DNA from: Caldisericales bacterium
GTDB taxonomy: Bacteria; Caldisericota; Caldisericia; Caldisericales; Caldisericaceae
Direction of reading: 5' to 3'
Length of the DNA: 64,000 bases
Assembly: GCA_015489815.1 (NCBI GenBank)
Contig: WFZA01000058.1
Coordinates: forward strand, 1-64,000
The position numbers and the translations under genes are program-made. The notes beneath the pieces are model-generated. The model did no database searches and was not told where the DNA came from. It worked only from the letters and a program-made list of their open reading frames with translations. Shown here piece by piece: positions 39,528 through 55,700 of the stretch. Position 1 is the stretch's first letter; the number at the start of each line of letters is the position of its first letter.

Positions 39528-39993
39528 CTTTCCCCTCCTTTAAAAGTTTTACTGCGAACTTTACTGCTTCTACTTGCTGGACATATCCAGTACATCTACA
39601 TAAGTTTCCGTCCAGTGCTTTTTTGATGTCTTCATCTGTTGGATTCGGGTTTTTCTTTAAAAGAGCATATGCGGAAAGTATAGTTCCTGGAGTGCAAAAT
39701 CCACATTGGACGGCGCCAACATCTACAAATGCTTTTTGCAACGGATGCGGGTTATTTAGGTCGCCAATCCCTTTTATAGTTGTTATATGCTTTCCATTTA
39801 CTTTTGCAGCAAGGATTGTGCAGCTTGTATGTGGCTCTCCGTCAATAAGGACTGTACATGCACCGCAGGTGCCCAAATAACAATTTCCTTTTATTTCAGA
39901 GTGTCCGTTCCTCCTTAAAACATCTAATAATACTTCACCAGGATGAATTTCGTATTCTTCCTCTTTGCCGTTTATTATGTATTTTACCTTCAT
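39520..39993 (-). CDS. xdhC: Xanthine dehydrogenase, 2Fe-2S subunit
   Basis: A 157-aa small subunit with both iron-sulfur clusters of the XDH family. The plant-ferredoxin-type site is Cys38, 43, 46 and 58 (CYLGTCGAC, SCTI). The second site is Cys97, 100, 132 and 134 (CGFCTPG, LCRCTGY). It passes electrons from molybdenum to FAD. It overlaps the FAD subunit by 4 bp and the large subunit by 8 bp. Confidence 0.96.
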   Translation of the reverse strand: MKVKYIINGKEEEYEIHPGEVLLDVLRRNGHSEIKGNCYLGTCGACTVLIDGEPHTSCTILAAKVNGKHITTIKGIGDLNNPHPLQKAFVDVGAVQCGFCTPGTILSAYALLKKNPNPTDEDIKKALDGNLCRCTGYVQQVEAVKFAVKLLKEGKDE

Positions 39994-40847
39994 TTTGCTG
40001 CCTCCAATGCTTCTAATAAAATTCTCTTTGCATATATATGTGAAAGATTTTTACGATATTCTTCTGTCGTTCTCGTGTCTGTGCCAACTTCTATGTGCTC
40101 TTCCACAAATTTGCCGAATTCCTCTGCGAGATCTTCTGAAAGCTCTCTGCCTTTGAGAAATTCACCAGCTCCCTGCATCAAGTATGCTGGTTTTGGCCTT
40201 GAGCCTGCAGCTACTCTCGCAGATGTTATCATTTTTCCTTCCGTTTTTAGCAGCGTTGCCATGTTGAACAGTGCAATGTCAGTTGCGTTTCTTACATAAC
40301 GCTTCATTGAAAAGAAATAATCTTTTGGATATTTCTCAAGGATTACTTCTTTTATAATTCTTTCCTTGAGTAGTCTTTTGAAGTTCTCTTTGTAGAAGTC
40401 GTTTATAGAGACGATTTCGTCCCATTCACCGTCCGAAAGCACGATTTTTCCATTAAGCCCGTATAAAAGTGTTACAATGTCTGAATACGGCTCTCTTTTT
40501 CCAAGCGAACCGCCTACTGTAATTTGATTTCTTAATAGTTCTGTTGCAATCTCTGGCAATACAGAGTGTACACAGCCACCCATATAGTCTTTAATCAGGT
40601 CAGATTCAATAAGATTAGTAATAGTAGTCATCGCTCCTATTTTGATTCCTTCAGAGGAATCTTTTACATACGAAAGATTTAAATTGTCTAAGAAAATCAG
40701 AAATTTAATTCTTGGATTGGGAAATACAGAAATGTCCAATCCTCCACCTACTACTTCTGCTAAGTCTCCATGTGAACGAAGAATGTCTACTGTTTCCTTA
40801 ATTGTTTGAGGATAATAGACTTCTTCGATTCCTTTTAGTTTTAACAT
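39990..40847 (-). CDS. xdhB: Xanthine dehydrogenase, FAD subunit
   Basis: A 285-aa FAD-binding subunit of the CO-dehydrogenase/XDH medium-subunit type. FAD contacts include VVGGGLDISVFPNP near residue 38 and the TVGGSLGKREPYSDIVTLL segment around 112-130. It transfers electrons to NAD+ or another acceptor. First gene of the minus-strand xdh operon, with GGAGAGGAGGGC as ribosome site. It is divergent from ssnA across 88 bp of overlapping promoters. Confidence 0.95.
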   Translation of the reverse strand: MLKLKGIEEVYYPQTIKETVDILRSHGDLAEVVGGGLDISVFPNPRIKFLIFLDNLNLSYVKDSSEGIKIGAMTTITNLIESDLIKDYMGGCVHSVLPEIATELLRNQITVGGSLGKREPYSDIVTLLYGLNGKIVLSDGEWDEIVSINDFYKENFKRLLKERIIKEVILEKYPKDYFFSMKRYVRNATDIALFNMATLLKTEGKMITSARVAAGSRPKPAYLMQGAGEFLKGRELSEDLAEEFGKFVEEHIEVGTDTRTTEEYRKNLSHIYAKRILLEALEAAK

Positions 40848-40935: not shown

Positions 40936-42285
40936 ATGAAGATAATAGGCAATGCATCAATTTTAACTCTCGGTAAAAAGGGATTTATAAGCGACGGAGC
41001 AATCCTGATTGATGGAGAAGTAATCAAACAGATAGGTACAACTGAAGACCTCAAAAACAAATTTCCTGATGCGGAATTTATTGATGCTCAGCACAGGCTT
41101 GTTATGCCAGGATTCCTTAATGCACACATGCATCTTTACAGTACATTCGCAAGGGGAATGGCGTTGAAAGGAGAACCACCGAAGACATTTGGAGAAATTT
41201 TGAAAAAGCTCTGGTGGAAATTGGATAAAAATTTAACTACTAAAGAGGAAATATACTACAGCGCGGTTGTTCCTCTGATTGAGGGGATTAAAACAGGTAC
41301 CACTGCAATACTGGATCACCATGCGTCATTTGGACTAATAGACGGAAGCCTTGATATAATTGAGAAAGCAGTCCTTGATACGGGGGTGCGTGCAGCGCTT
41401 TGCTATGAAACTTCCGACCGCTGGGGAAAAGAAGCGCGCGATGCATCTATTCGTGAAAATGTGAGATTTATCCGCAAAAAACAGGCAAATACGGGGGCCG
41501 AACCTGAAACACTTACTGCCGCAACTTTTGGAATGCATGCATCTCTTACCCTGTCTGATGAAACTCTTGAAATTGCAAAGGGCGAGGCGGATTCTTTGGG
41601 CGTAGGTTTTCACATTCATGTTGCAGAAGGTGAAGAAGATGTAGAAGATTCTTTAAAAAAGAGTGGCGTAAGAGTCGTAGAAAGATTACAGAAATTCGGC
41701 ATTCTTGGTGATAAAACACTTGCCATTCACTGCATACATATAAATGAAAAAGAAATAGATATTTTAAAAGAAACGAATACAATGGTGGTGCACAATCCTG
41801 AATCAAATATGAATAATGCTGTAGGTGTTGCACCAATACTTGAATTCTTTAAGAAAGGCATTCTTACAGGTATAGGAACTGACGGCTATACGCCTTCAAT
41901 GTTTGAGTCCGTAAAAGTTGCGTATGTACTGCCAAAACTCCACTACGGCGATCCACGAGTTGGCGGAAGCGAATCGCAAAAAATGCTGTTTGAAAATAAC
42001 AGAAAAATCTTTGCAAAGTTTTTCAACAGGCCTGTTGGCATAATCGAAGAAGGTGCTTTTGCGGATATTATAATCCTTGATTACTTCCCACCTACTCCAT
42101 TCAATGAAAACAATGCATTTTACCATCTTATTTTTGGAATGAGGGATAATATGGTGAATACGACCATAATCAATGGAAAGGTCGTTATGAAAGATCATAA
42201 GCTTACAGAAATAAACGAGGAAGAAATTATGGCAAAGGCAAGGGAAGTTTCAAAGAAATTCTGGGAGAAAATGGAAAATGAATAG
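40936..42285 (+). CDS. ssnA: SsnA-like amidohydrolase/aminohydrolase
   Basis: A 449-aa amidohydrolase-superfamily protein close to SsnA and related purine/triazine deaminases. The metal site has HMH at residues 64-66 (LNAHMHLYST), with further His in HIHVAEG and HCIHIN and the Asp in GIGTDGY. The usual reaction is hydrolytic deamination of a purine-like ring, for example guanine to xanthine. SsnA itself belongs to the E. coli purine catabolic set with XdhD, HyuA, YgeW, YgeY and ArcC, most of which follow here. It overlaps ade by 8 bp. Confidence 0.88.
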   Translation: MKIIGNASILTLGKKGFISDGAILIDGEVIKQIGTTEDLKNKFPDAEFIDAQHRLVMPGFLNAHMHLYSTFARGMALKGEPPKTFGEILKKLWWKLDKNLTTKEEIYYSAVVPLIEGIKTGTTAILDHHASFGLIDGSLDIIEKAVLDTGVRAALCYETSDRWGKEARDASIRENVRFIRKKQANTGAEPETLTAATFGMHASLTLSDETLEIAKGEADSLGVGFHIHVAEGEEDVEDSLKKSGVRVVERLQKFGILGDKTLAIHCIHINEKEIDILKETNTMVVHNPESNMNNAVGVAPILEFFKKGILTGIGTDGYTPSMFESVKVAYVLPKLHYGDPRVGGSESQKMLFENNRKIFAKFFNRPVGIIEEGAFADIIILDYFPPTPFNENNAFYHLIFGMRDNMVNTTIINGKVVMKDHKLTEINEEEIMAKAREVSKKFWEKMENE

Positions 42286-44014
42286 AAAGTTTTCTCGAAA
42301 AGAGCTCGAAGAAATTATTGATGCAGCCAGAGGGCTTAGAAAAGCAGACTTGTTAATTAAAAACGGAAGGGTTGTAAATGTATTTAACGAAACTATAGAA
42401 GAAAAGGATGTATTGATTCATAAGGGCATTGTTGTAGGAGTAGGAAAGTACGATGATGCAGAAGTAATTGTTGATGCTAATGGGCGTTTTGTTGCTCCAG
42501 GTTTTACTGACGCTCATATGCACATTGAAAGCACGATGTCTATCCCGCCGGAATTTGCAAAAGCAGTAATCCCTCTTGGTACGACTACTGCTGTAGTGGA
42601 TCCTCACGAAATTGCAAATGTTGCAGGCATTCCAGGTATCCAGTTTATGATTAATTCTTCTGAAAACCTTCCTATGGACATTTATTTTATGCTTTCGAGT
42701 TGCGTACCTGCGACTCCACTTGAAACATCTGGTGCGCATTTGTATGCAGAGGACCTTGCTATTTTTAAAGATAATCCGCGTGTTTTGGGCCTTGCAGAAA
42801 TGATGAACTATCCAGGGCTGCTTGCAAAAGTGCCTGAGGTGCTGGATAAAATTGCAAAGTTTAGAGATATGATCATCGACGGCCATGCGCCTGGACTCAG
42901 CGGAAAAGATTTAAATGCATATCTTGCTGCAGGTGTTATGGCTGATCACGAATGTACAGTTCCAGATGAAGCAAACGAAAAGCTCTCTAAAGGTATGTGG
43001 ATTATGATGCGTGAAGGTTCTCTTACACGCGATGTTTTACGGCTTTTGCCTATATTGAATGACCATACGAAGCACAGGATTATGCTGGCGACTGATGATA
43101 AACATCCGGAGGATCTTGTCCATGAAGGGCACATAAATTTTGCGATTTCGCTTCTACTGAACAATGGAGTTTCACTTCCTGTTGCTGTCCGTCTTGCCAC
43201 GCTAAACTCTGCAAATTTCTTCGGATTTAAGCGTAAGGGTGGCATTGCACCTGGATACGATGCAGACCTCGTAATTTTTAAAGATATTCTAAGAATTGAA
43301 AAAGTATACAAGGACGGAGTGCTTGTTGCTGAAAATGGAAAACCCCTGTTTGAGTTTAAAGGAGAGTTACACGACGATGCCGTTAAGAACACGATAAATA
43401 TTAAACCTGTTACTTTTGAGAAACTTCGTGTTCCTGTTGAAAAAGGGAAGATAAGGGTAATAGGCATACATCCTGACACAATTTTGACGGACGAACTTCT
43501 TTATGAACCTAAAGTTGAAAATGGAGTTGTCGTTTCTGATGCTGAAAGGGATATTATAAAGATTGCCGTCGTTGAAAGACATAAAGCAACGGGAAATGTA
43601 GGTATAGGATTTATTCACGGTCTTGGATTGAAAAAAGGTGCTTTTGCAACTTCTGTTGCGCACGACTCTCACAATATTATCGTTGCTGGTGAAAATGATA
43701 AAGACATGCTACTTGCTATTGCGCAAATAGAGGCAATGGGTGGTGGCATTGCTATTGCAAAAGACGGAAAGATTTTAGGCAGTTTAGCATTGCCGTACGG
43801 AGGGCTTATGACGAACAGGCCTATCACTGAAACCTCAGAAATTTTAATAAACCTCCACAAGATTGCAAAAGAGGAAAATGAAGCATCCGTGTCTGACCCG
43901 TTTATGACGCTGGCATTTATGAGTCTTCCTGTGATACCGAAGTTAAAAATTACAGACAAAGGACTCGTTGATGTAGATAAATTTGACTTTGTTCCTTTAT
44001 TTAAGGAGGAGTAA
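42278..44014 (+). CDS. ade: Adenine deaminase
   Basis: A 578-aa adenine deaminase of the amidohydrolase superfamily, converting adenine to hypoxanthine and ammonia. The family signature DAHMHIESTMSIPPEFAKAV supplies metal-binding His residues, DPHEIANVAG is typical, and the C-terminal half contains GHGLGLKKGA-like and MGGGIAIAKDGK stretches of the AdeC type. It feeds hypoxanthine to the neighbouring xanthine dehydrogenase. It overlaps ssnA by 8 bp and hyuA by 1 bp. Confidence 0.95.
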   Translation: MNRKFSRKELEEIIDAARGLRKADLLIKNGRVVNVFNETIEEKDVLIHKGIVVGVGKYDDAEVIVDANGRFVAPGFTDAHMHIESTMSIPPEFAKAVIPLGTTTAVVDPHEIANVAGIPGIQFMINSSENLPMDIYFMLSSCVPATPLETSGAHLYAEDLAIFKDNPRVLGLAEMMNYPGLLAKVPEVLDKIAKFRDMIIDGHAPGLSGKDLNAYLAAGVMADHECTVPDEANEKLSKGMWIMMREGSLTRDVLRLLPILNDHTKHRIMLATDDKHPEDLVHEGHINFAISLLLNNGVSLPVAVRLATLNSANFFGFKRKGGIAPGYDADLVIFKDILRIEKVYKDGVLVAENGKPLFEFKGELHDDAVKNTINIKPVTFEKLRVPVEKGKIRVIGIHPDTILTDELLYEPKVENGVVVSDAERDIIKIAVVERHKATGNVGIGFIHGLGLKKGAFATSVAHDSHNIIVAGENDKDMLLAIAQIEAMGGGIAIAKDGKILGSLALPYGGLMTNRPITETSEILINLHKIAKEENEASVSDPFMTLAFMSLPVIPKLKITDKGLVDVDKFDFVPLFKEE

Positions 44015-45390
44015 TGAAAAAAATTAAAAATGGATTTATCGTGAAAGAAGGTAATAACCTTCAAAAAGTTACGATATACATAGAAGATGGTAAAATTCGT
44101 TTTGTTATGCCTGGCAACGATAATTCGTATGAGGTATCCGAAGAAGTTGACGCAGAAGGAAATGTTGTTTTTTCAGGCTTTATAGATCCTCATGTACACT
44201 TTGACGATCCAGGCTTTACAGATAGGGAGGATTTCGAAACTGGGACGAGAAGTGCGGCAGCCGGAGGTATTACTACTATAATAGATATGCCGTGCACTTC
44301 TATTCCTCCTGTAACAAGTGGCGATAACTTTGACAATAAATTAAACATCGTTTCGAAAAAGGCGTATATCGACTTTGCATTCTGGGGTGGTGTTACGCCT
44401 GAGCAGATTAAAAATGGAGAGTATAAGAAAACTCTAAGAGAACTTAAAGATAGAGGAATTGTAGGAGTAAAATTTTATACAATTTCTGGAATGGATCTTT
44501 ATCCACGGATGCCTGTCCCTCAAATGCACAGAGCATTTGAATATTTAAAGAAACTTAATCTCATATGTGGAGTACATGCAGAAGATTTCTATTTAGTTGA
44601 CTTTTATTCGTCCCTATTACAAAAACAGGGTAGAAGTGACCCTTATGCCTGGTTTGAAGGAAGGGTTTATCAGGCAGAAGCAGAGGCTATTTGGTCAGTT
44701 ATAGGTATTACACAAAAAGTGGGCAATAAGCTTCACATCGTGCACTTATCCTCTAAGGAAGGGCTACATGCAGTAAAGTGGGGAAAAACTCATGGGATAG
44801 ACATAACAACTGAAACCTGTCCGCATTATTTGTTGTTTAATGTAGAGGACTTAACGCGTATGGGTGCTATTTTAAAAACTGCTCCGCCTGTGCGTAGAAA
44901 GGAAGACAATTTGGCTCTCTGGGAAGGGCTAAAAGATGGGACGATAGACTTTATTTCTACGGATCATGCAGCAGGAAAGTTTCCTGAAGAAAAATCTGGC
45001 CCCAATATCTGGAAGGATTATGCAGGCATTCCAGGAACACAGCTTGTTGCTTCTACTATAATTATGTACGCACACCACGAAAATGGCTTTACACTGGAAA
45101 AGGTTCAAAAACTACTGTCTGAGAATGCAGCAAGGCGTTACGGTTTGTATCCTTTAAAGGGTTCACTTAATATTGGAACAGACGCCGATTTTACGATCGT
45201 TAATATAAATGAAGAATTTACCGTAGATGCAACAAAACTTGAAAGTAAAGGAAAATATTCACCGCTAAATGGCTCAAAGCTTAGAGGAAAGGTGAAAAAA
45301 ACGATTGTGCGCGGAGAAGTGGTATTTGACGATAAAGTAGGAGTTCTCAATAAAAAGGGCTTCGGAAAGCTTGTAAAAAGCATGCTATGA
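44014..45390 (+). CDS. hyuA: Dihydropyrimidinase/hydantoinase family (HyuA-like)
   Basis: A 458-aa cyclic amidohydrolase. The dimetal site comprises His60 and His62 (DPHVHFDD), a probable carboxylated Lys153 (GVKFYTIS), later His residues (GVHAED, IVHLSS) and Asp in STDHAA. The family opens cyclic amides, as in dihydropyrimidines, hydantoins and allantoin. In this setting the likely substrate is an oxidised or reduced purine ring. The sequence is also allantoinase-like, and the two cannot be separated by eye. A 1-bp overlap joins it to ade and a 4-bp overlap to the MBL gene. Confidence 0.87.
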   Translation: MKKIKNGFIVKEGNNLQKVTIYIEDGKIRFVMPGNDNSYEVSEEVDAEGNVVFSGFIDPHVHFDDPGFTDREDFETGTRSAAAGGITTIIDMPCTSIPPVTSGDNFDNKLNIVSKKAYIDFAFWGGVTPEQIKNGEYKKTLRELKDRGIVGVKFYTISGMDLYPRMPVPQMHRAFEYLKKLNLICGVHAEDFYLVDFYSSLLQKQGRSDPYAWFEGRVYQAEAEAIWSVIGITQKVGNKLHIVHLSSKEGLHAVKWGKTHGIDITTETCPHYLLFNVEDLTRMGAILKTAPPVRRKEDNLALWEGLKDGTIDFISTDHAAGKFPEEKSGPNIWKDYAGIPGTQLVASTIIMYAHHENGFTLEKVQKLLSENAARRYGLYPLKGSLNIGTDADFTIVNINEEFTVDATKLESKGKYSPLNGSKLRGKVKKTIVRGEVVFDDKVGVLNKKGFGKLVKSML

Positions 45391-46193
45391 AAATAACTGT
45401 TCTCGTAGATAATTACATTACAAAGAGAGATTTTATTGCAGAGCACGGGTTTTCCCTACTTATAGAAACTGATGACAAGAAAATCCTTTTTGATACTGGG
45501 CAGGGATATGCGTTAAAAAATAACTTAGATGTTTTAAAAATAAATCCTCACGGTATAGATTTTATTGTTTTAAGTCACGGGCACGACGACCATACAGGTG
45601 GGTTAAAGTTCTTTATAGAAGAAAAAGTTTTTCCGCGTATTACTGCACATCCTGATGTAGTATTACCTAAGTATAAAGTTGAATCAGGTAAAAAAGAAAA
45701 TATCGGTTTGAAGTATTCATTAGGTGTTTTTCATCCAGAATTTTTTAAGGGGCCGCGAGCTCTTGACGAAAAGATTGTATTTTCTGGAGAAGTACCAAAG
45801 GTGAATCAATGGGAGCTTGAAGAAACCAAATATTTCAGGGAAGTTAATGAGCAATTAGAGAAAGATCCATTTACAGACGATGTTTCACTATTTGTTACTA
45901 CTGATAAAGGGCTTGTAGTCCTTACGGGTTGCGCACATTCAGGAATAATAAATATAATTCAATATGGACTTGAGGTTACACATTCGGATCATCTGCGTGG
46001 CATAATAGGAGGTATGCATTTAAAAAATGCTTCACAGAAGCGTATTGAAAAGACTGTTAGTATATTAAAAGAATTAAATCCTGAATTTATAACAGTTTCG
46101 CATTGTACAGGGCTGGAAGCGGGAGTTGTATTTAAAAATGTTTTAAAAGATAAAGTAATTTTTACTTCTGTTGGTATGTGGTTTTCTATTTAA
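45387..46193 (+). CDS. Metallo-beta-lactamase-fold hydrolase
   Basis: A 268-aa MBL-fold protein of the group annotated as dihydropteridine / ribofuranosylaminobenzene phosphate synthase-related. The metal motif SHGHDDHTGG gives His64, His66, Asp68 and His69, with later His in TGCAHSGI and a C-terminal SHCTG. Its reaction is unknown. Being embedded with 4-bp coupling between hyuA and ygeY implies a step in purine breakdown, possibly hydrolysis of a ring-opened amide. This is inferred from context only. Confidence 0.78.
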   Translation: MKITVLVDNYITKRDFIAEHGFSLLIETDDKKILFDTGQGYALKNNLDVLKINPHGIDFIVLSHGHDDHTGGLKFFIEEKVFPRITAHPDVVLPKYKVESGKKENIGLKYSLGVFHPEFFKGPRALDEKIVFSGEVPKVNQWELEETKYFREVNEQLEKDPFTDDVSLFVTTDKGLVVLTGCAHSGIINIIQYGLEVTHSDHLRGIIGGMHLKNASQKRIEKTVSILKELNPEFITVSHCTGLEAGVVFKNVLKDKVIFTSVGMWFSI

Positions 46194-46226: not shown

Positions 46227-46262
46227 AGTTGCTAAAATCTATTACATATGGGAGGTAGAATT

Positions 46263-47471
46263 ATGGGTGATAAGGAACAAAAAATCAAAGAACTTGTAGC
46301 AAAGTATCAAGACGACATTATAAAATTCGCTCAGGACATCGTCAGAACTAAATCTTACTCTGGTCAGGAAGAAAAACTCGTTAAGTTGTTTGAAAGTAAA
46401 ATGAAAGAGCTGGGTTTTGACGAAGTAATTATTGACAAAACGGGTAACATTATTGGTAGAGTAGGCCATGGTGATATAAAAGTACTGTATGATGCACACA
46501 TTGACACAGTAGAAGCAGAAGATAAGGAAAATTGGCATTACGACCCATTTGGTGGTGAAATTGTCGACGGAAAGCTTTACGGTAGAGGTAGCTCTGATGA
46601 AAAAGCTGCTATGGCTTCTATGATTTACGGGGCAAAGATTCTGAAGGAAGTCGGCATTCCTGATAATATTTCTCTGTATATTTCTGGTACTGTCCAGGAA
46701 GAAGTGTGTGACGGACTTACAATTGGACTCCTAATAGAAGAAGTTGTAAAACCAGATTTTGTAGTGCTTTGCGAGCCTACGAGCCTTGATGTTTACAGAG
46801 GGCATAGGGGAAGAGTAGAAGTTTCTATTACGACAAAAGGCAAGTCGGCGCATGCTGCACATCCTAACAGAGGAGATAATGCAATTTACAGGATGGCAAA
46901 AACTGTAGTAAACATTGAAAAACTTACGGAAACCTTCAAGGAAGATCCATTCCTTGGCAAAGGTACTGCAGTTGTTTCAATTATTGAATCTAAGTCTCCG
47001 TCTATTAACTCGGTACCTTACGAAAGCACAATTTATATTGACAGAAGGCTTACTTTAGGTGAAACAAAAGAGAGTGCAATTGAAGAATTCAAAACTACAT
47101 TTGTTGACCCGGATAAAACGGAAATTAATGTACTCACATTTGAAGGAGTGTCATGGAAAGGTAGAAAGATTTCTCAGGAAAAGTATTTCCCTACCTGGGT
47201 ACTTGAAGAGAATCATCCGCTTGTACAGGCAGGTTTTGAAGCAGCAAAACTTGCACGTCCAGGTGAAGATGTTAAAATTTCCAGATGGATTTTCTCTACT
47301 AATGGTGTAACGACTATGGGAAGGTATCACATTCCATCCATTGGTTTTGGGCCTGGCGATGAGTGGCTTGCTCATGCAGTTGATGAGTATGTAAGAGTTT
47401 CTGATTTACCAAAAGCTGCAGTATTTTATGCGCTTTTCCCATTTAGTCTTGTTGAAAAAATTAATAAATAA
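46263..47471 (+). CDS. ygeY: YgeY-like M20 peptidase/amidohydrolase
   Basis: A 402-aa M20-family metallohydrolase. Metal ligands are recognisable in YDAHIDTV, GRGSSDEKAAM, GTVQEEVCDG and a C-terminal GDEWLAHAVDEY. The YgeY subgroup, found with YgeW, YgeX and SsnA, is thought to hydrolyse an acyl/carbamoyl intermediate of purine breakdown, not peptides. Start at 46263 is chosen because GGAGGT at 46250-46255 fits it; an ATG at 46248 lies before that ribosome site. It is followed by ygeW at 13 bp. Confidence 0.9.
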   Translation: MGDKEQKIKELVAKYQDDIIKFAQDIVRTKSYSGQEEKLVKLFESKMKELGFDEVIIDKTGNIIGRVGHGDIKVLYDAHIDTVEAEDKENWHYDPFGGEIVDGKLYGRGSSDEKAAMASMIYGAKILKEVGIPDNISLYISGTVQEEVCDGLTIGLLIEEVVKPDFVVLCEPTSLDVYRGHRGRVEVSITTKGKSAHAAHPNRGDNAIYRMAKTVVNIEKLTETFKEDPFLGKGTAVVSIIESKSPSINSVPYESTIYIDRRLTLGETKESAIEEFKTTFVDPDKTEINVLTFEGVSWKGRKISQEKYFPTWVLEENHPLVQAGFEAAKLARPGEDVKISRWIFSTNGVTTMGRYHIPSIGFGPGDEWLAHAVDEYVRVSDLPKAAVFYALFPFSLVEKINK

Positions 47472-47484
47472 TTAGGAGGTATTA

Positions 47485-48474
47485 ATGAATACAAAATTAA
47501 AAGGCAGAGATTTTTTATCTACCAATGATTGGACTCTTGAAGAGTTAGAGCAGGTGCTTGACTTATCTTTTAAATTTAAACAGGAACGCGCGCTAAGGGT
47601 TCCTCATTCAAATATTCTTCCGGGAAGAGAACTCTTTATGATATTTAAGGATAAGTCTACAAGAACGAGAAACTCTACAGAAACTGCAATGATTCAACTC
47701 GGAGGCCATGCTACGTATCTTCCTGCAGAAGCAACCCAGATTTCTCACGGCGATACGGCGAAAGAAATCGGAATAATCTTCTCCCGTTATGGTGACGGAA
47801 TTGCTATTAGAGACGATATCTACCTTGGCGTAGGCCAAAAGTATATGGAAGATGTTGCAAAATGGGCAGATGTCCCTGTGATAAACCTTGAATCAGATTG
47901 GGACCATCCTATGCAAATGCTTGCAGATATTATGACTATTAAAGAAAAATTCAATAACGATATTCGCGGTAGAAAGTTTGTCATTTCCTGGGCGTATGCA
48001 ACTTCTCATGCAAAACCGCCTGCGGTCCCTCAGGGACTTATTATGATGATGCCGCGTTTTGGACTCAATGTAACACTTGCAATGCCAAAAGAGTTTGCAG
48101 TAAGTCCAAAGGCAATGGAAATTGCTGAGAAAAACGCGAAGGAAGCTGGTGTAAAATTTGAAGTAGTAAACGATATGGATGAGGCTTTTAAGGATGCGGA
48201 TATAGTGTATCCAAAGTCATGGGGTGCTTACTACTATGCGGAGAATAATTTTGAAGAAATGAAAAAAATTGCTGATAAATATAAGGATTGGATTGCAGAT
48301 GAGAGGCGTATGAAACTTGCAAAGAAAAATGCGATTTATATGCATTGTTTGCCAGCAGATAGGGGTGCTGAAGTAACAAATGAAGTTATTGACGGGCCTC
48401 AATCTGTTATCTATGATGAAGCAGAGAATAGATTGCATACGGTAAAGGCTGTTCTTGCTTTAACTATTAGATAA
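47485..48474 (+). CDS. ygeW: YgeW-like transcarbamylase
   Basis: A 329-aa aspartate/ornithine carbamoyltransferase-fold enzyme. The carbamoyl-phosphate loop is STRTR (58-62), HPMQ starts at His141 and HCLPADRG is near 288. The segment after STRTR (NSTETAM) differs from ornithine transcarbamylase (usually xSFE), which fits the YgeW group of unusual specificity. It is probably run in the catabolic direction, moving a carbamoyl group from the purine-derived ureido compound to phosphate for the carbamate kinase next door. It is shorter than E. coli YgeW (about 396 aa). Confidence 0.87.
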   Translation: MNTKLKGRDFLSTNDWTLEELEQVLDLSFKFKQERALRVPHSNILPGRELFMIFKDKSTRTRNSTETAMIQLGGHATYLPAEATQISHGDTAKEIGIIFSRYGDGIAIRDDIYLGVGQKYMEDVAKWADVPVINLESDWDHPMQMLADIMTIKEKFNNDIRGRKFVISWAYATSHAKPPAVPQGLIMMMPRFGLNVTLAMPKEFAVSPKAMEIAEKNAKEAGVKFEVVNDMDEAFKDADIVYPKSWGAYYYAENNFEEMKKIADKYKDWIADERRMKLAKKNAIYMHCLPADRGAEVTNEVIDGPQSVIYDEAENRLHTVKAVLALTIR

Positions 48475-48496: not shown

Positions 48497-49447
48497 GTGG
48501 GAAAATTAGCTGTGCTTGCAATCGGGGGGAATTCTCTGATAAAAGACAAGCAACATGAGACGGTAGAAGATCAGTACAAAGCAGTTTGCGAAACTGCTAA
48601 ACACATTGTGGGAATGGTAGAGCAAGGTTTCGATGTAGTTGTGACACATGGAAATGGGCCGCAGGTAGGATTTATTTTAAGGCGCTCCGAAATTGCTCAT
48701 GATGTTGCTGGTATGCATCCGGTACCTCTGGTGAACTGTGGTGCTGATACGCAGGGTGCGATTGGTTATCAAATCCAGCAGGCACTTGATAATGAATTTC
48801 TTAGAAGGGGTATTAGTAAGAGAGCAGCTACTGTCGTAACGCAGGTTGTTGTGGACAAAAATGACCCTGCTTTTAAAAATCCGTCTAAACCTATTGGTAC
48901 TTTCTATACAAAAGAGCAAGCAGATAAACTCAAAAAAGAACATCCTGACTGGGTGATTATAAATGATGCGGGTAGGGGATATAGAAGAGTTGTTCCTTCT
49001 CCAATGCCCAAAGAAATTGTAGAACAGGCTGCAATTGAGCTTCTTGTTAAGAATGGTTTTAGTGTTGTAGGTGTTGGCGGTGGCGGCATTCCTGTTATAA
49101 GAAACGATAATGGAGAATTAGAAGGTATTGATGCTGTTATTGATAAAGATAATGCCTCAAGCTTGCTTGCTGTGAACATTAAAGCAGATATATTTATAAT
49201 TTCAACTGCTGTAGAAAAGGTATACTTAAATTATAACAAACCGAATCAAAAAGCTCTGGACAAGATGACAGTTGCAGAAGCGAAGAAGTACATTGAAGAA
49301 GGACACTTTGCAAAAGGTAGTATGCTCCCAAAAATTCAGGCTGTTATTCGTTTCCTTGAAGCAGGTGGCAGGGAGGCAATAATAACAAATCCTGAATCAC
49401 TTGAGCGGGCTCTGAAAGGCGAAACGGGCACACATATTTATCCGTAG
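48497..49447 (+). CDS. arcC: Carbamate kinase
   Basis: A 316-aa carbamate kinase, making ATP and carbamate from carbamoyl phosphate and ADP when catabolic. Landmarks are the N-terminal LAIGGNSLIK, VVTHGNGPQVG, the conserved block with NCGADTQGAIGYQIQQAL, VGVGGGGIPV and DKDNASSLLA. The start is a GTG with a strong GGAGGTGA ahead of it. It follows ygeW, so YgeW and ArcC form the ATP-yielding end of the pathway. A strong terminator follows. Confidence 0.96.
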   Translation: MGKLAVLAIGGNSLIKDKQHETVEDQYKAVCETAKHIVGMVEQGFDVVVTHGNGPQVGFILRRSEIAHDVAGMHPVPLVNCGADTQGAIGYQIQQALDNEFLRRGISKRAATVVTQVVVDKNDPAFKNPSKPIGTFYTKEQADKLKKEHPDWVIINDAGRGYRRVVPSPMPKEIVEQAAIELLVKNGFSVVGVGGGGIPVIRNDNGELEGIDAVIDKDNASSLLAVNIKADIFIISTAVEKVYLNYNKPNQKALDKMTVAEAKKYIEEGHFAKGSMLPKIQAVIRFLEAGGREAIITNPESLERALKGETGTHIYP

Positions 49448-49502: not shown

Positions 49503-49531
49503 TTTACAACTACAGGATTTCGTATTATAAT
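49503..49531 (+). promoter_or_regulatory. Promoter of the nucleoside transporter operon
   Basis: TTTACA (49503-49508), 17 bp, perfect TATAAT (49526-49531). The start point would be near 49538, giving a roughly 90-nt leader before the lipoprotein ATG, longer than usual in this window. Confidence 0.78.
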
Positions 49532-49627: not shown

Positions 49628-50755
49628 ATGAGAAAGTATAAAGTATTAGCTGCTTTGCTCGTAGTTTTATTAGTTGTTTCGTTGTTTGTTGGTTGTGCTC
49701 CAAAAAAAACACAGCCAAGTAACGGTGGCAATGCGCAGAAACCAAAAGAGAAAATTAAAGTTGCAATGTTACTTGTTGGTCCAAAAAATGACGGTGGTTG
49801 GTCACAGGCACACTATGAAGGTCTTATGTATCTAAAAGATCACGATCCAAATGTAGAAGTTGCATATTCAGAAAATGTCCCAGAAGGTGCTCCAGCAGAG
49901 AAAGTTATTAGAGATTATTGTAATCAGGGTTACAAAGTGATATTTGGGACGAGCTTCGGATTTATGGATCCTATGTATGATGCGGCAAAGGACTATCCAA
50001 ATGTTATTTTTGAGCACTGCTCTGGTTATAAGACTCGTAAGAATATGGGTACATACTTTGGTAGAATGTATCAGCCAGACTATCTTGCAGGTCTTGTTGC
50101 AGGTATGATGACGAAAACTAACTACATTGGTTTTGTTGCGCCGTTCTCAATTCCGGAAGTTGTCAGGGAAATTGACGCTTTTACTATTGGTGTGAGAGAA
50201 GTAAATCCTAAGGCGGAAGTTCATGTGGTATGGTTAAATACATGGTTTGACCCAACTAAAGAAGGTAATGCAGCAAAAACATTCATTGCTAATGGTGCTG
50301 ACATTATTGCAAGTGGTATGGACTCTCCTGCCCCACTTGTTGAAGCGCAGAAAGCAGGCATATACGCAATAGGTTACGATAGAGATATGTCGACTTATGC
50401 ACCTAAGGCAGTCCTTACTTCTCGTATCTGGCACTGGGGTGTATTCTATACAAAATGCTTAAAAGAGGTTGAAGATGGAACCTGGAAGTCTACCCAGTAT
50501 TGGGGTGGCATGAAAGATGGTATCGTAAGTCTTGCTCCATTTGGACCTATGGTGCCCGAAAAGGTAAAACAATATGTAGAAAAGAGAGAAAAAGAGATTA
50601 AAGACGGTACATTCAAAGTATTTGAAGGCCCTATTTATGATCAGCAAGGAAACCTTAAAGTGCCGAAGGGCCAGGAACTCTCTGATGCTGATAAGCTACA
50701 ACTTCAATGGTTTGTTAAAGGAGTAGTTGGAAGCATACCAAAGAGTGGTTCTTAA
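49628..50755 (+). CDS. BMP-family nucleoside-binding lipoprotein
   Basis: A 375-aa substrate-binding lipoprotein. The signal peptide ends in the lipobox FVGC (Cys23). The mature protein has BMP/PnrA-family segments: KVAMLLVGPKNDGGWSQAH, GTSFGFMDPMYDAAKDYPN and YFGRMYQPDYLAGLVAG. The family captures purine nucleosides outside the membrane for the ABC importer encoded next. The location after the purine catabolic genes supports a purine ligand. AGGAGGAGG precedes the ATG. Confidence 0.93.
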   Translation: MRKYKVLAALLVVLLVVSLFVGCAPKKTQPSNGGNAQKPKEKIKVAMLLVGPKNDGGWSQAHYEGLMYLKDHDPNVEVAYSENVPEGAPAEKVIRDYCNQGYKVIFGTSFGFMDPMYDAAKDYPNVIFEHCSGYKTRKNMGTYFGRMYQPDYLAGLVAGMMTKTNYIGFVAPFSIPEVVREIDAFTIGVREVNPKAEVHVVWLNTWFDPTKEGNAAKTFIANGADIIASGMDSPAPLVEAQKAGIYAIGYDRDMSTYAPKAVLTSRIWHWGVFYTKCLKEVEDGTWKSTQYWGGMKDGIVSLAPFGPMVPEKVKQYVEKREKEIKDGTFKVFEGPIYDQQGNLKVPKGQELSDADKLQLQWFVKGVVGSIPKSGS

Positions 50756-50811: not shown

Positions 50812-50827
50812 GTAAATGGAGGATGAT

Positions 50828-52357
50828 ATGGCTGAATATATTCTTCAAGCAAGAAATATTACTAAAAAGTTCCCCGGAGTGTTAGCAAACGATCACATTA
50901 ATTTTGATCTTAAAAAAGGAGAAATTCACACTATACTTGGTGAAAATGGGGCAGGAAAGTCTACATTAATGAACATTCTTGACGGTATTTATTACCCAAA
51001 CGAGGGAGAAATATACATAAATGGCAAGAAAGCAAACATACGCTCTCCTTTTGATTCTATGCGCTACGGTATAGGAATGATTCATCAACACTTTATGCTT
51101 GTAGATACATTAACGGTTCTGGAAAATGTAATTTTAGGTTTGAAAGATCAAAGTTTTTTTATAAATAAAAAACAAATAGCTGATAAAATCATCGAGATAT
51201 CGGATAAGTATAAGTTTGACTTAAAACCTTTTGCCAAGATCTGGCAACTTTCTGTTGGTGAGCAGCAGAGAGTAGAGATAGTGAAGATGCTTTTTAGAGG
51301 AGCGGATATTCTTATACTTGACGAACCTACAGCGGTTCTTACGCCTCAGGAGTCGGAGGCACTATTTGAAATTCTAAAAAAGATGAAGAGTGAGGGAAAG
51401 TCAATTATATTTATAAGCCATAAATTAAATGAAGTAATGGAAATTTCTGATAGAATTACTGTTTTAAGGAAAGGTAAAGTTATAGGAACTGTAAATAAAG
51501 AAGAGACTAATCCTGTGGAACTTGCAAAAATGATGGTAGGCAGGGAAGTTTTGTTTAGATTACAGCGCAAACCTCTGGAGCGAGGAGAAGAAGTTTTAAA
51601 AGTTGAAAATGTAGAAGCCTATAATGACAGAGGTATAAAAGTTCTAAATAAAATTGGCTTTACTGTACATAAAGGAGAAATTTTTGGGCTTGCTGGAGTT
51701 GCGGGAAATGGGCAAAAAGAACTTGCACAGGTTATAACTGGGTTAAGGAAAGCAACCAGTGGAAAAGTTTTTTTACTAGGAAAGGACATTACAAACCAGC
51801 ATCCTCTTGTGATTGCAAATAGTGGAACAAATTACATTCCGCCTGATAGGCTAAAGGTCGGCCTTATTCCTAATCTCTCTTCTATAGATAATGCAATATT
51901 AAGACGATACAGGAAGAATCCGATTGGCTCTGGAATACTGGTTAACTACAAAAAGGCCAGGGAATATACAGAGAGCTTGATAGAGAAGTTTAATATAATG
52001 GTTCCACGAATTGATGCACCTGTAAAATTACTCTCTGGTGGAAATATGCAAAAACTACTTCTTGCGCGAGAAATTTCTGAAAATCCTGCGCTTCTTATAG
52101 CAGTGCATCCTACCAGAGGTTTAGACATTGGTGCAACAGAATTTATACGAAAAAAACTTCTTGAAGTTAGAGATAGTGGTATGGCCGTGCTTTTAATTTC
52201 GGAGGACCTGGATGAAATATTAATGATTTCTGATCGTATAGGGGTAATTTACGAGGGAAGAATTACCGGAATAATGGATGCAAAGGATGCGGATGTTCAT
52301 AAAATTGGCCTTCTTATGGCAGGTTCTACCGAAGAAGAAAGCGCAACAGTGCACTGA
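50828..52357 (+). CDS. Nucleoside ABC transporter ATPase (tandem domains)
   Basis: About 509 aa with two ABC domains, as in RbsA/NupO-type importers. Domain 1: Walker A GENGAGKSTLM, signature LSVGEQQRVEI, Walker B LILDEPTAVLTP. Domain 2: degenerate P-loop GVAGNGQKELA, signature LSGGNMQKLLLA, HPTRGLDIGATEF. Such unequal domains are normal in this family. GGAGG at 50818-50822 is correctly spaced to the ATG at 50828. A start at 50816 would begin inside the ribosome site. Two permease genes follow. Confidence 0.94.
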   Translation: MAEYILQARNITKKFPGVLANDHINFDLKKGEIHTILGENGAGKSTLMNILDGIYYPNEGEIYINGKKANIRSPFDSMRYGIGMIHQHFMLVDTLTVLENVILGLKDQSFFINKKQIADKIIEISDKYKFDLKPFAKIWQLSVGEQQRVEIVKMLFRGADILILDEPTAVLTPQESEALFEILKKMKSEGKSIIFISHKLNEVMEISDRITVLRKGKVIGTVNKEETNPVELAKMMVGREVLFRLQRKPLERGEEVLKVENVEAYNDRGIKVLNKIGFTVHKGEIFGLAGVAGNGQKELAQVITGLRKATSGKVFLLGKDITNQHPLVIANSGTNYIPPDRLKVGLIPNLSSIDNAILRRYRKNPIGSGILVNYKKAREYTESLIEKFNIMVPRIDAPVKLLSGGNMQKLLLAREISENPALLIAVHPTRGLDIGATEFIRKKLLEVRDSGMAVLLISEDLDEILMISDRIGVIYEGRITGIMDAKDADVHKIGLLMAGSTEEESATVH

Positions 52358-52367
52358 GAGGTGAGAT

Positions 52368-53462
52368 ATGATTAGATTTGAAAAAAGAGAATCAACTTCT
52401 ACGAGCTTAAAAATTCTTATCCCAACAGTATCCATTATTTTAGGTATTTTAATTGGTGCTGTGGCAATTCTTTTAAAGGGAATTAATCCCATTAAAGTAT
52501 ACCAGGCCCTTTTAATAGGTGCGTATAGCAGTAAGTATACATTCTCTGAAACACTCGTTGCAGCAACACCGCTTATTTTAATCTCTGCAGGGTTGATCGT
52601 GGTATTTAAAATGAACTTCTGGAACATTGGTGCATACGGGCAGTACATCATGGGTGCAATCTTTAGTTCTTACTTCGCAATTTTTTGGTCACCGCACATT
52701 CCCAAGGTAATAATGCTTACCGTTATGGTAATTGCAGGTATGGTAGGTGGTGCGTTGTGGGCCATTATTCCCGCTTTGCTTAAAGCATATTGGGAGGTAA
52801 ACGAAGTTATTTCTACCCTACTTCTTAATTACATTGCACTTTTTGTGCTGAAGTTTTTAATGTATGGTACCTGGAGAGATCCGTTAAGCCACGGCTTTCC
52901 GCTGTCAAAACCATTCCCGAATAATGCCCAGCTTCCAAGAATAATACCTCATACGCGTGTTAATTTGGGATTAATATTTGGTATTATAGCTGTTTTCGTC
53001 GTATGGTATCTTCTTAAAAAGACGAAATTTGGGTACGAAATCAGGGTAATTGGTGAAAATCCTAATGCAGCGCGTTATGCAGGAATGAATGTGGCAAAAA
53101 ACATTATTATTGCTATGATTATAAGTGGTGCACTTGCAGGTCTTGCTGGGATGGTTCAGGTTTCTGGAATTATCCATTTACTTCAGATTAAAATTAATCC
53201 GGATTATGGGTATACGGCGATTATCGTAGCATGGCTTGCTTATCTTGACCCAATTGTTGCATCTTTCTTTGCTGTGTTTCTTGGTGGCCTTGCATCTGGT
53301 GCTTACCAGATTCAGATTACGATGCAGGTGCCTTTTGGAATCGTAGGCGTTATTGAAAGTGCAATTCTTTTTGTTTTAATTGGTAGCGAGATTTTTATGA
53401 GATATCGTTTGGTTTTTGATGTGGGGAAGAAAAAACATAGTGGCCAGGAGGAAACATTATGA
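52368..53462 (+). CDS. Nucleoside ABC transporter permease 1
   Basis: A 364-aa BPD_transp_2 (RbsC/NupP-type) permease with about nine to ten hydrophobic helices. Typical family segments are MNFWNIGAYGQYIMGAI, VNEVISTLLLNYIAL and GENPNAARYAGMNV, the EAA-like coupling loop. It forms half of the membrane channel for the importer. It starts 10 bp after the ATPase and overlaps the second permease by 4 bp. Confidence 0.93.
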   Translation: MIRFEKRESTSTSLKILIPTVSIILGILIGAVAILLKGINPIKVYQALLIGAYSSKYTFSETLVAATPLILISAGLIVVFKMNFWNIGAYGQYIMGAIFSSYFAIFWSPHIPKVIMLTVMVIAGMVGGALWAIIPALLKAYWEVNEVISTLLLNYIALFVLKFLMYGTWRDPLSHGFPLSKPFPNNAQLPRIIPHTRVNLGLIFGIIAVFVVWYLLKKTKFGYEIRVIGENPNAARYAGMNVAKNIIIAMIISGALAGLAGMVQVSGIIHLLQIKINPDYGYTAIIVAWLAYLDPIVASFFAVFLGGLASGAYQIQITMQVPFGIVGVIESAILFVLIGSEIFMRYRLVFDVGKKKHSGQEETL

Positions 53463-54400
53463 GCGGAGCACATCACATCGTATTAATAGTGTTATTTTCT
53501 GCGGCAGTTCAATCAGGTACGACACTTCTGTATCCTACGATTGGGGAGATATTTGCTGAGCGTTCTGGTATATTAAACCTTGGCGTTGAGGGTATGATGA
53601 TAATGGGTGCGTTTTTTGGTTTTGTAGTTACCTATATTACGAGGAATCCTTATATTGGATTTCTTGCAGGTGTGTTAGCTGGAGGAGCAGCGGCTTTGAT
53701 TCATGCTTTTGTTTCAATTACACTCAGGGGTAATCAGGTGGTAAGTGGATTGGCACTTACTATTTTTGGATTAGGATTTACTAATTTTTATGGGCAGAGG
53801 TGGATCAATTTGCGCTCTCCAGTTACGGTGTCTCAGATGTCTGTTCCACTACTTTCTAAAATACCTTACATAGGTCCAATTTTCTTTAAGCAAGATGCGC
53901 TTGTTTATACATCTTACATAGTTGCAATTGTTATGTGGTTCATTCTTTATAAGACAAAAGTAGGTGTTCACCTTCGTGCAACAGGACAGAATGCTCGTGC
54001 AGCAGATGCAATGGGTGTAAATGTATATGCAACGCGTTACTGGTGGACATTTTTTGGTGGTTTACTTGCAGGTGCAGGTGGTGCTTACCTTACAATTGCT
54101 TATGCCCCGTTCTGGCTTGACGGAATGACAGCAGGTAGGGGATGGATAGCAATTGCTCTCGTAATATTTGCGATGTGGGATCCGTTAAATGCAATGGTTG
54201 GTGCGTACTTATTCGGTGGAATTGATGCATTACAATTGCAGTTACAGGCAGTTGGAGTAACGATTCCTTCCTCTCTGCTTAATATGCTTCCGTACCTTTT
54301 AACATTGATTGTTATTATTATTGCTACACTTATCGTAAGGGTAAAACACATATCGGCACCGAAGGAACTTGGTATTCCGTACAATAGGGAGGAAAAGTAA
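53459..54400 (+). CDS. Nucleoside ABC transporter permease 2
   Basis: A 313-aa BPD_transp_2 (NupQ-type) permease with about eight to nine hydrophobic helices. Typical blocks are ERSGILNLGVEGMMIMGAF near the N-terminus, LRGNQVVSGLALTIFGLG, and the coupling loop ATGQNARAADAMGVN. It is the second half of the channel. It overlaps permease 1 by 4 bp and the PLP enzyme gene by 1 bp, which makes the enzyme part of the transporter operon. Confidence 0.93.
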   Translation: MSGAHHIVLIVLFSAAVQSGTTLLYPTIGEIFAERSGILNLGVEGMMIMGAFFGFVVTYITRNPYIGFLAGVLAGGAAALIHAFVSITLRGNQVVSGLALTIFGLGFTNFYGQRWINLRSPVTVSQMSVPLLSKIPYIGPIFFKQDALVYTSYIVAIVMWFILYKTKVGVHLRATGQNARAADAMGVNVYATRYWWTFFGGLLAGAGGAYLTIAYAPFWLDGMTAGRGWIAIALVIFAMWDPLNAMVGAYLFGGIDALQLQLQAVGVTIPSSLLNMLPYLLTLIVIIIATLIVRVKHISAPKELGIPYNREEK

Positions 54401-55635
54401 TGAGCTATGTAAAAAAGCTAAAATGCTTATTGTGTGGTAGTGAATATAATCCTGACGAGGTAACTTACACATGTCCAAAGTGTGGTAACGATGGGATTCT
54501 TGAAGTAATTTATGATTACGAGGAAATTAAAAAACACTTCTCTAAAGAATCTCTTCAAAGCAATAAAGATTACTCAATGTGGCGTTACCTGCCTCTCTTG
54601 CCAGTTAACGATCCTTCTAAGATTGGTCCCTTGAAGGTTGGCTGGACGCCACTTTACGAAGCAAAAAGAATTAGAGAGGATTTAGATGTTCCGTATCTAT
54701 GGATTAAAGATGACGGTAGAAACCCTACTGCGTCACTAAAGGATCGTGCATCAGCAATAGCTATAGTTAAGGCTCAGGAACTTGGAAAGAAAGTTGTAAC
54801 TTGTGCATCTACTGGTAATGCTGCCTCTTCGCTTGCAGGAGCTTCTGCTTCCGTGGGATTGAAAAATTACATTTTTGTGCCAAGGACGGCTCCAAAGGCA
54901 AAAATTGCACAACTTCTCGTTTTTGGGGCGACTGTACTTACCGTAAAAGGCAGTTACGATGAAGCATTTGACCTTTCCATTAAAGCAACTGAGAAATTCG
55001 GATGGTACAATAGAAACACCGCATTCAATCCGTATATGGTGGAAGGCAAAAAAACTGTAGCTCTTGAGATCATAGAACAAATGAATTTTGAAGTGCCTGA
55101 TTATGTGTTTGTTTCTGTTGGTGATGGCTGTATTATTTCTGGTGTTGCAAAAGGATATAGGGATATGCTTTCGCTCGGATTTATTGATAAGATGCCTAAA
55201 CTCGTTGCTGTGCAGGCAGAAGGATGCAAACCTATTGTTGATGCTGTTAACGGTGATGGGACTGTAAAATTTGTTAAACCAGATACAATTGCAGATAGTA
55301 TTGCTGTTGGCATTCCACGGAATAGAGTAATGGCTGTAAGAGATGTGAAAGAGTCTGGTGGTTTTGGCATTGCTGTCAGCGACGAAGAAATTTTATCTGC
55401 AATTAAATATTTAGGTTCTACGCAGGGAATCTTTGCGGAACCTGCAGGTGCAACTGGTTTTGCTGGAATGTTAAAAGCGCTGAAAGAAGGAAAAATCAGT
55501 AAGAATGACAAAATTGTAGTTATTGTGACTGGGAATGGACTAAAAGATGTAGAAAGTGCACAGAAGGCAGGAGGTACTCCTATTGAAATTGAACCGCGGA
55601 TTGAAGATGTGGAAAGAGTACTTAAAGAAAAGTGA
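54400..55635 (+). CDS. Threonine-synthase-like PLP-dependent lyase
   Basis: A 411-aa fold-type II PLP enzyme. An N-terminal zinc ribbon (Cys9, 12, 25, 28) precedes the catalytic domain, where Lys114 in NPTASLKDRA should bind PLP; typical threonine synthase reads NPTGSFKDR. The phosphate-binding loop is STGNAASSLAG. No homoserine kinase or dehydrogenase gene is nearby. Instead it ends the nucleoside transporter operon beside ygeY-ygeW-arcC, where other genomes have YgeX, a PLP 2,3-diaminopropionate ammonia-lyase. It could be a true threonine synthase or a lyase replacing YgeX. Confidence 0.85.
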   Translation: MSYVKKLKCLLCGSEYNPDEVTYTCPKCGNDGILEVIYDYEEIKKHFSKESLQSNKDYSMWRYLPLLPVNDPSKIGPLKVGWTPLYEAKRIREDLDVPYLWIKDDGRNPTASLKDRASAIAIVKAQELGKKVVTCASTGNAASSLAGASASVGLKNYIFVPRTAPKAKIAQLLVFGATVLTVKGSYDEAFDLSIKATEKFGWYNRNTAFNPYMVEGKKTVALEIIEQMNFEVPDYVFVSVGDGCIISGVAKGYRDMLSLGFIDKMPKLVAVQAEGCKPIVDAVNGDGTVKFVKPDTIADSIAVGIPRNRVMAVRDVKESGGFGIAVSDEEILSAIKYLGSTQGIFAEPAGATGFAGMLKALKEGKISKNDKIVVIVTGNGLKDVESAQKAGGTPIEIEPRIEDVERVLKEK

Positions 55636-55671: not shown

Positions 55672-55700
55672 GGCTTGCAAGATTTTTGCAGGCCTTTTTT
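55672..55700 (+). terminator. Intrinsic terminator of the transporter operon
   Basis: A 9-bp stem GGCTTGCAA (55672-55680) / TTGCAGGCC (55686-55694) with one G-U pair and a 5-nt loop, followed by six T. It lies 36 bp after the PLP-enzyme stop codon. Confidence 0.82.

Follow-up and report, generated by a model that had tools for sequence, protein, structure and literature searches.

A threonine-synthase-like enzyme as a putative replacement for YgeX in the reductive uric acid pathway

The reductive (anaerobic) pathway of uric acid breakdown has been elucidated only lately, from work on gut bacteria, and draws medical interest because of gout. It is established in E. coli, including the step in which YgeX breaks down diaminopropionate to pyruvate and ammonia, and albizziin is placed one step upstream by Li et al. 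(PMC12507026). Whether the D or the L configuration is used in the pathway is unsettled (PMC12990295). The candidate catalytic residue of YgeX is Asp120 (PMC4000059). In the neighborhood survey of Li et al., YgeX was marked only via PF00291, a domain that is also present in the enzyme considered here (PMC12507026). We found no description of a replacement of YgeX by a threonine synthase (ThrC)-like enzyme in the open literature. Deaminase activity occurs as a side reaction in the threonine synthases of Thermus and Microcystis (PMC12172450), indicating that their scaffold is capable of beta-elimination and is a plausible starting point for such a replacement.

In a Caldisericota genome, a ThrC-like PLP enzyme (PALP) is encoded at the end of a purine gene cluster. 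We consider it likely that PALP is a 2,3-diaminopropionate ammonia-lyase derived from ThrC, which would catalyze the final reaction of this pathway as a non-orthologous replacement of YgeX. Its substrate, its reaction and the roles of its residues are what we infer from sequence comparison and gene context.

The PALP gene and its cluster in Caldisericota

The window, the whole stretch of DNA analyzed (64,000 nucleotides of contig WFZA01000058.1), comes from a Caldisericota MAG of 1.29 Mb that is 77.9% complete. PALP is encoded on the forward strand at 54400..55635 and is 411 aa long. It scores 266 bits with PF00291 (PALP domain) and is a fold-type II PLP enzyme. Its PLP loop, NPTASLKDRA, occupies residues 108-117, where K114 is the Schiff-base lysine and aligns with the catalytic Lys77 of YgeX. 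Further motifs are STGNA (137-141), WYNRNTAF (202-209), EGKKT (215-219) and VGDG (240-243). The AlphaFold model is confident (pLDDT 94.2). The PDB entries that it matches best are threonine synthases, which is what a protein that diverged from the ThrC stock should give, and the first of them is the ThrC 2zsj, at about 38% identity (Foldseek probability 1.00).

PALP follows the genes of an ABC transporter: a BMP-family substrate-binding lipoprotein (49628..50755), probably serving purine nucleoside or base uptake, an ATPase of the NupA/sugar-nucleoside type (50816..52357), permease 1 (52368..53462) and permease 2 (53459..54400), all on the forward strand. The transporter is of the BMP/NupA type with a putative substrate; NCBIfam models of B6 transporters matched far below cut-off. 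In the junction ...ggaaaagtaATGagc, the last base of the permease TAA (54398-54400) is also the first base of the PALP ATG, which gives a 1-bp overlap. A terminator-like hairpin of 10 pairs with a T-run lies directly 3' of the PALP gene (55672..55694, forward strand), so that the gene run starting at the binding protein ends with PALP. A first-pass annotation of this DNA had described the same PLP loop, and had made PALP the last gene of the transporter operon with a 1-bp overlap; the sequence and the hairpin agree with both statements. A promoter-like site (49503..49531, forward strand, 11 of 12) lies 5' of the operon, the number of sites in the scan being not above that in shuffled sequence.

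The cluster extends well upstream of the transporter. Upstream on the forward strand is the SsnA aminohydrolase, which serves to mark the reductive uric acid pathway (40936..42285; NF005540 620 bits, cut-off 444; TIGR03314 585 bits, cut-off 455.5), followed by adenine deaminase (42278..44014; TIGR01178 593 bits, cut-off 472.5) and a cyclic amidohydrolase in the AllB/HyuA role (44014..45390; TIGR03178 381 bits, cut-off 358). A hydrolase of the metallo-beta-lactamase fold (45387..46193) separates the latter from the YgeY hydrolase (46248..47471; NF009555 493 bits, cut-off 321). Next come a carbamoyltransferase (47485..48474) and a carbamate kinase in the ArcC/YqeA role (48497..49447; NF009007 478 bits, cut-off 266; TIGR00746 385 bits, cut-off 358). 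The carbamoyltransferase scores 239 bits with YgeW, for which the cut-off is 453, and is 36-68% identical to proteins of other uricolytic clusters; it is therefore called YgeW-like, by context and homology. Divergent from these genes, on the reverse strand, are the XdhA/XdhC/XdhB-like subunits of a molybdenum hydroxylase in the XdhD role (37185..40847; TIGR03313 703 bits, under the cut-off for fused XdhD). By sequence, the gene set of the window matches the reductive uric acid pathway of E. coli. The first-pass annotation had placed PALP beside ygeY-ygeW-arcC. All three genes are indeed found just upstream of the transporter, but the second is only YgeW-like, and the cluster is larger than was stated, with the Xdh subunits, SsnA, adenine deaminase and the cyclic amidohydrolase preceding YgeY.

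A ring-reducing candidate lies outside the window, on contig C19 of the same genome (L135:4502-9855). It consists of PreA (436 bits, cut-off 335) and a YgfK/GltD-like partner, and the gene for a molybdenum-hydroxylase Fe-S subunit follows directly. By eye, further genes of this contig look like MobA-, MoeA- and XdhC-accessory types. The PreA module is a candidate for the ring-reduction step, of the YgfK or the UacX/PreA type, and would then act on yanthine.

Relation to threonine synthases

By profile scores PALP could be taken for an ordinary threonine synthase that lies near purine genes by chance. It exceeds the cut-offs of both ThrC profiles, with 211.7 bits for TIGR00260 (cut-off 167.1) and 323.8 bits for PRK08197 (cut-off 303), and its closest structure is a ThrC. 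The other members of its clade exceed the TIGR00260 cut-off, and some of them that of PRK08197. Nevertheless, we regard this explanation as very improbable. A canonical thrC is present on contig C20 of the same genome, with NPTGSFKDR, NSLNPIRLEGQKT and PGGNLGN and a complete substrate site, in an operon with asd and a ThrA-type aspartokinase/homoserine dehydrogenase gene. PALP is thus not the sole thrC of the genome, a point that the first-pass annotation had proposed to check. A second ThrC-like gene besides PALP is found in most genomes of the phylum, in several phyla PALP is linked to genes for uric acid breakdown, and the residues of the phosphate site are gone throughout the PALP clade.

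This clade was defined in a tree of 77 proteins that included PALP and its homologues, ThrCs of solved structure, the ThrC of the same genome, a ThrC-like clade of Aquificota type and YgeX. PALP falls in one clade of 42 sequences (SH-aLRT 99), separate from the ThrCs, the Aquificota-type clade and YgeX. The separation from the solved ThrCs and from YgeX is what the earlier proposal had implied. Thermus ThrC holds the phosphate of its substrate with N154, S155, R160 and N188, positions that were checked by alignment. The phosphate-site Arg is replaced by Met, Thr or Leu in 42/42 clade members (position 213 of PALP), and the last phosphate-site Asn by Asp (D242), again in all 42, whereas canonical ThrCs keep both the Arg and the Asn. 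Also invariant in the 42 sequences are A141, Y203-N204-R205 and K217, where canonical ThrCs have Thr, other residues and Gln, respectively. The name 'threonine synthase', which comes from the NCBI PRK08197 model, is therefore probably wrong for PALP.

The Aquificota-type clade served as a contrast group. Its members (L041, L042, L044-L054, L056-L065) come from Aquificota, Nitrospirota, Omnitrophota and deltaproteobacterial MAGs, carry HPTLSFKDRV and VNINIRPFYAEGSKT, and are 41% identical to PALP. They too are without the phosphate-site Arg of ThrC and form a third clade in the tree, which rules them out as true ThrCs; by sequence, this clade is probably also misnamed threonine synthase. A strong match to SsnA was found in none of the 12 genomes with this sister clade (best 227 bits).

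Distribution of PALP and exclusion of YgeX

PALP homologues are found among YgfK, SsnA, YgeW, YgeY, HyuA and Xdh genes in Atribacterota, Bacilli, Marinimicrobia, Bacteroidota and a deltaproteobacterial MAG. Their identity to PALP of the window is 44-54% in loci outside Caldisericota and 77-81% in Atribacterota. In each of the stretches outside Caldisericota, the only YgeX-like match is PALP itself, at about 25%. Two Bacilli MAGs (L019 and L023) have E. coli-like YgeW (66%) and YgeY (72-73%), with PALP in the slot of YgeX. In an Atribacterota MAG, a second, divergent M20-family hydrolase, 24-26% identical to YgeY, comes after PALP (L014:11209-12330), and L012 has a similar one.

PALP also co-occurs with SsnA. 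Among 54 genomes of the phylum Caldisericota, 35 have both genes, three have one only and three the other only, and 13 have neither (Fisher 2e-7, ignoring shared ancestry). In the Bacilli class to which the genome of L023 belongs (296 genomes), PALP and SsnA are each present in 43; 40 genomes have both, three and three have a single one, and 250 have neither (Fisher 3e-42, likewise ignoring shared ancestry). In this class, all 37 testable pairs, those on the same contig, are linked, 2.4-8.3 kb apart. Outside Caldisericota, SsnA is strong and full-length in 23 of 27 PALP-bearing genomes, and fragments of it are found in two more. Two clade members, from a Chlamydiae MAG (L037:6857-8083) and a Cloacimonadota MAG (L038:1493-2707), belong to genomes without a strong SsnA match; an Xdh gene lies next door to the latter. 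The tests ignore shared ancestry, yet the pattern repeats across phyla.

No PALP-bearing genome searched here has a YgeX above cut-off. PALP itself scores 65.3 bits with NF006058 (YgeX), under the cut-off of 276. A search of the source genome yielded no YgeX, the best match being PALP itself. No YgeX above the curated cut-off was found in any of the 54 genomes of the phylum, nor in the 27 PALP-bearing genomes of other groups. Six of the 296 genomes of the Bacilli class have YgeX, and PALP is present in none of these six. Three genomes of this class have SsnA without PALP, and two of them carry YgeX next to YgeY in the cluster (L114, L115), in a slot that holds PALP in the relatives L119 and L120. 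Genome G277 has an SsnA-like protein and neither PALP nor YgeX. Mutual exclusion of PALP and YgeX is expected if both share one reaction. These results, together with the separate clade and the separate thrC, support non-orthologous replacement as the first-pass annotation had proposed it. On sequence evidence, the replacement of YgeX by a ThrC-like enzyme seems to span at least six bacterial phyla, so that the last step would have been invented twice.

In many clusters PALP adjoins a second fold-type II PLP enzyme, here called PLP2, a CysK-like protein of about 450-495 aa from a family without a name. PLP2 is found beside PALP in Bacilli, Bacteroidota and Atribacterota (L119:11881-13365, L116:14132-15484, L030:8379-9884, L018:3367-4836 and L014:12414-13880). 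In the genome of the window, it is encoded on contig C16 (L130:8176-9696), near genes that by eye are MobA-like and formate-dehydrogenase-like. The frequent pairing, and the presence of PLP2 elsewhere in the genome of the window, would be accounted for if PLP2 were the real diaminopropionate lyase and PALP an accessory. This is most improbable, however, because PLP2 also stands beside genuine YgeX (L114, L115, L129) and so is not the replacement of YgeX, while it is PALP that is missing wherever YgeX occurs. Moreover, clusters of Marinimicrobia have PALP with only a CysK homologue and no PLP2. In these clusters, a CysK-family gene lies between SsnA and YgeY (L021:6745-7797; also L022 and L024) and is perhaps the counterpart of PLP2. 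As a common neighbor of PALP and YgeX, PLP2 instead supports the equivalence of the two enzymes.

Proposed reaction and comparison with known systems

PALP would have arisen from the stock of threonine synthases and threonine deaminases. As a diaminopropionate lyase, it would take the 2,3-diaminopropionate produced by the YgeW-like enzyme together with YgeY, and by alpha,beta-elimination of ammonia form aminoacrylate, which would hydrolyze to pyruvate and a second ammonia. K114 would form the internal aldimine and abstract the alpha proton, whereupon the beta-ammonium leaves, and the STGN loop would bind the carboxylate. The phosphate site of ThrC (Asn, Ser, Arg, Asn) would have been rebuilt with the invariant D242, Tyr-Asn-Arg (203-205) and Lys217 to accept the cationic beta-ammonium and not phosphate, with D242 above all binding the cationic beta-amino group. 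Asp120 of YgeX aligns with Thr138 of PALP, a Thr in 42/42 clade members. A different set of residues must therefore do the work in PALP, and the activity, if correctly assigned, arose independently.

Fold-type II enzymes often differ just in the leaving group, and PALP might accordingly belong to the same pathway with another substrate. It could be a serine/threonine dehydratase, racemize diaminopropionate, catalyze a beta-replacement, or act as a lyase on albizziin (3-ureidoalanine) by direct removal of urea. The position of albizziin one step upstream (PMC12507026), the unsettled stereochemistry of the pathway (PMC12990295) and the presence of PLP2 beside PALP in many clusters are in favor of such a role. 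We nonetheless hold it to be unlikely, since the YgeY of the clusters would make diaminopropionate, for which these genomes have no other known lyase, and since PALP and YgeX exclude each other as enzymes with one shared reaction should. It is likewise unlikely that PALP and PLP2 form a different terminal branch, in which diaminopropionate, or a ureido precursor, does not simply undergo elimination to pyruvate but is converted into another amino acid, either stereospecifically or through beta-replacement.

If PALP is a diaminopropionate ammonia-lyase, the final reaction has a second solution that evolved independently, and the known range of the pathway would grow to take in Caldisericota, Atribacterota, Bacilli, Marinimicrobia and Bacteroidota, where a search based on YgeX misses it. 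This would also correct the automatic name 'threonine synthase' on PALP genes, and would offer a natural case for comparing how an active site that binds phosphate turned into one for a cationic substrate. Should PALP be isomer-specific, it would also be relevant to whether the pathway uses the D or the L form.

The case is one of probable replacement within a known pathway and not of a new kind of system. PALP has in common with ThrC (2zsj of Aquifex, 1uim/1v7c of Thermus, 6cgq of B. subtilis) the fold, the PLP lysine and the core of the carboxylate loop. Unlike ThrC, it is without the phosphate-site Asn/Ser/Arg/Asn and Thr88 (Thermus numbering) and has the invariant YNR, Lys217 and Asp242 instead, and its gene is in purine clusters, not in thr operons. 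With YgeX (E. coli b2871; PDB 4d9g; NF006058/TIGR03528), PALP shares the fold type, the cluster slot beside YgeY, in Bacilli the position beside PLP2 and, as proposed here, the reaction. However, the two are only about 25% identical over part of their length and lie on separate branches of the tree. The closest precedent is UacX and UacY of Clostridioides difficile, which are likewise non-orthologous swaps, at other steps of this pathway (Li et al., 2025; PMC12507026). Those enzymes replace YgfK and YgeW, whereas PALP is proposed to replace YgeX, a replacement that is absent from the main text of that paper.
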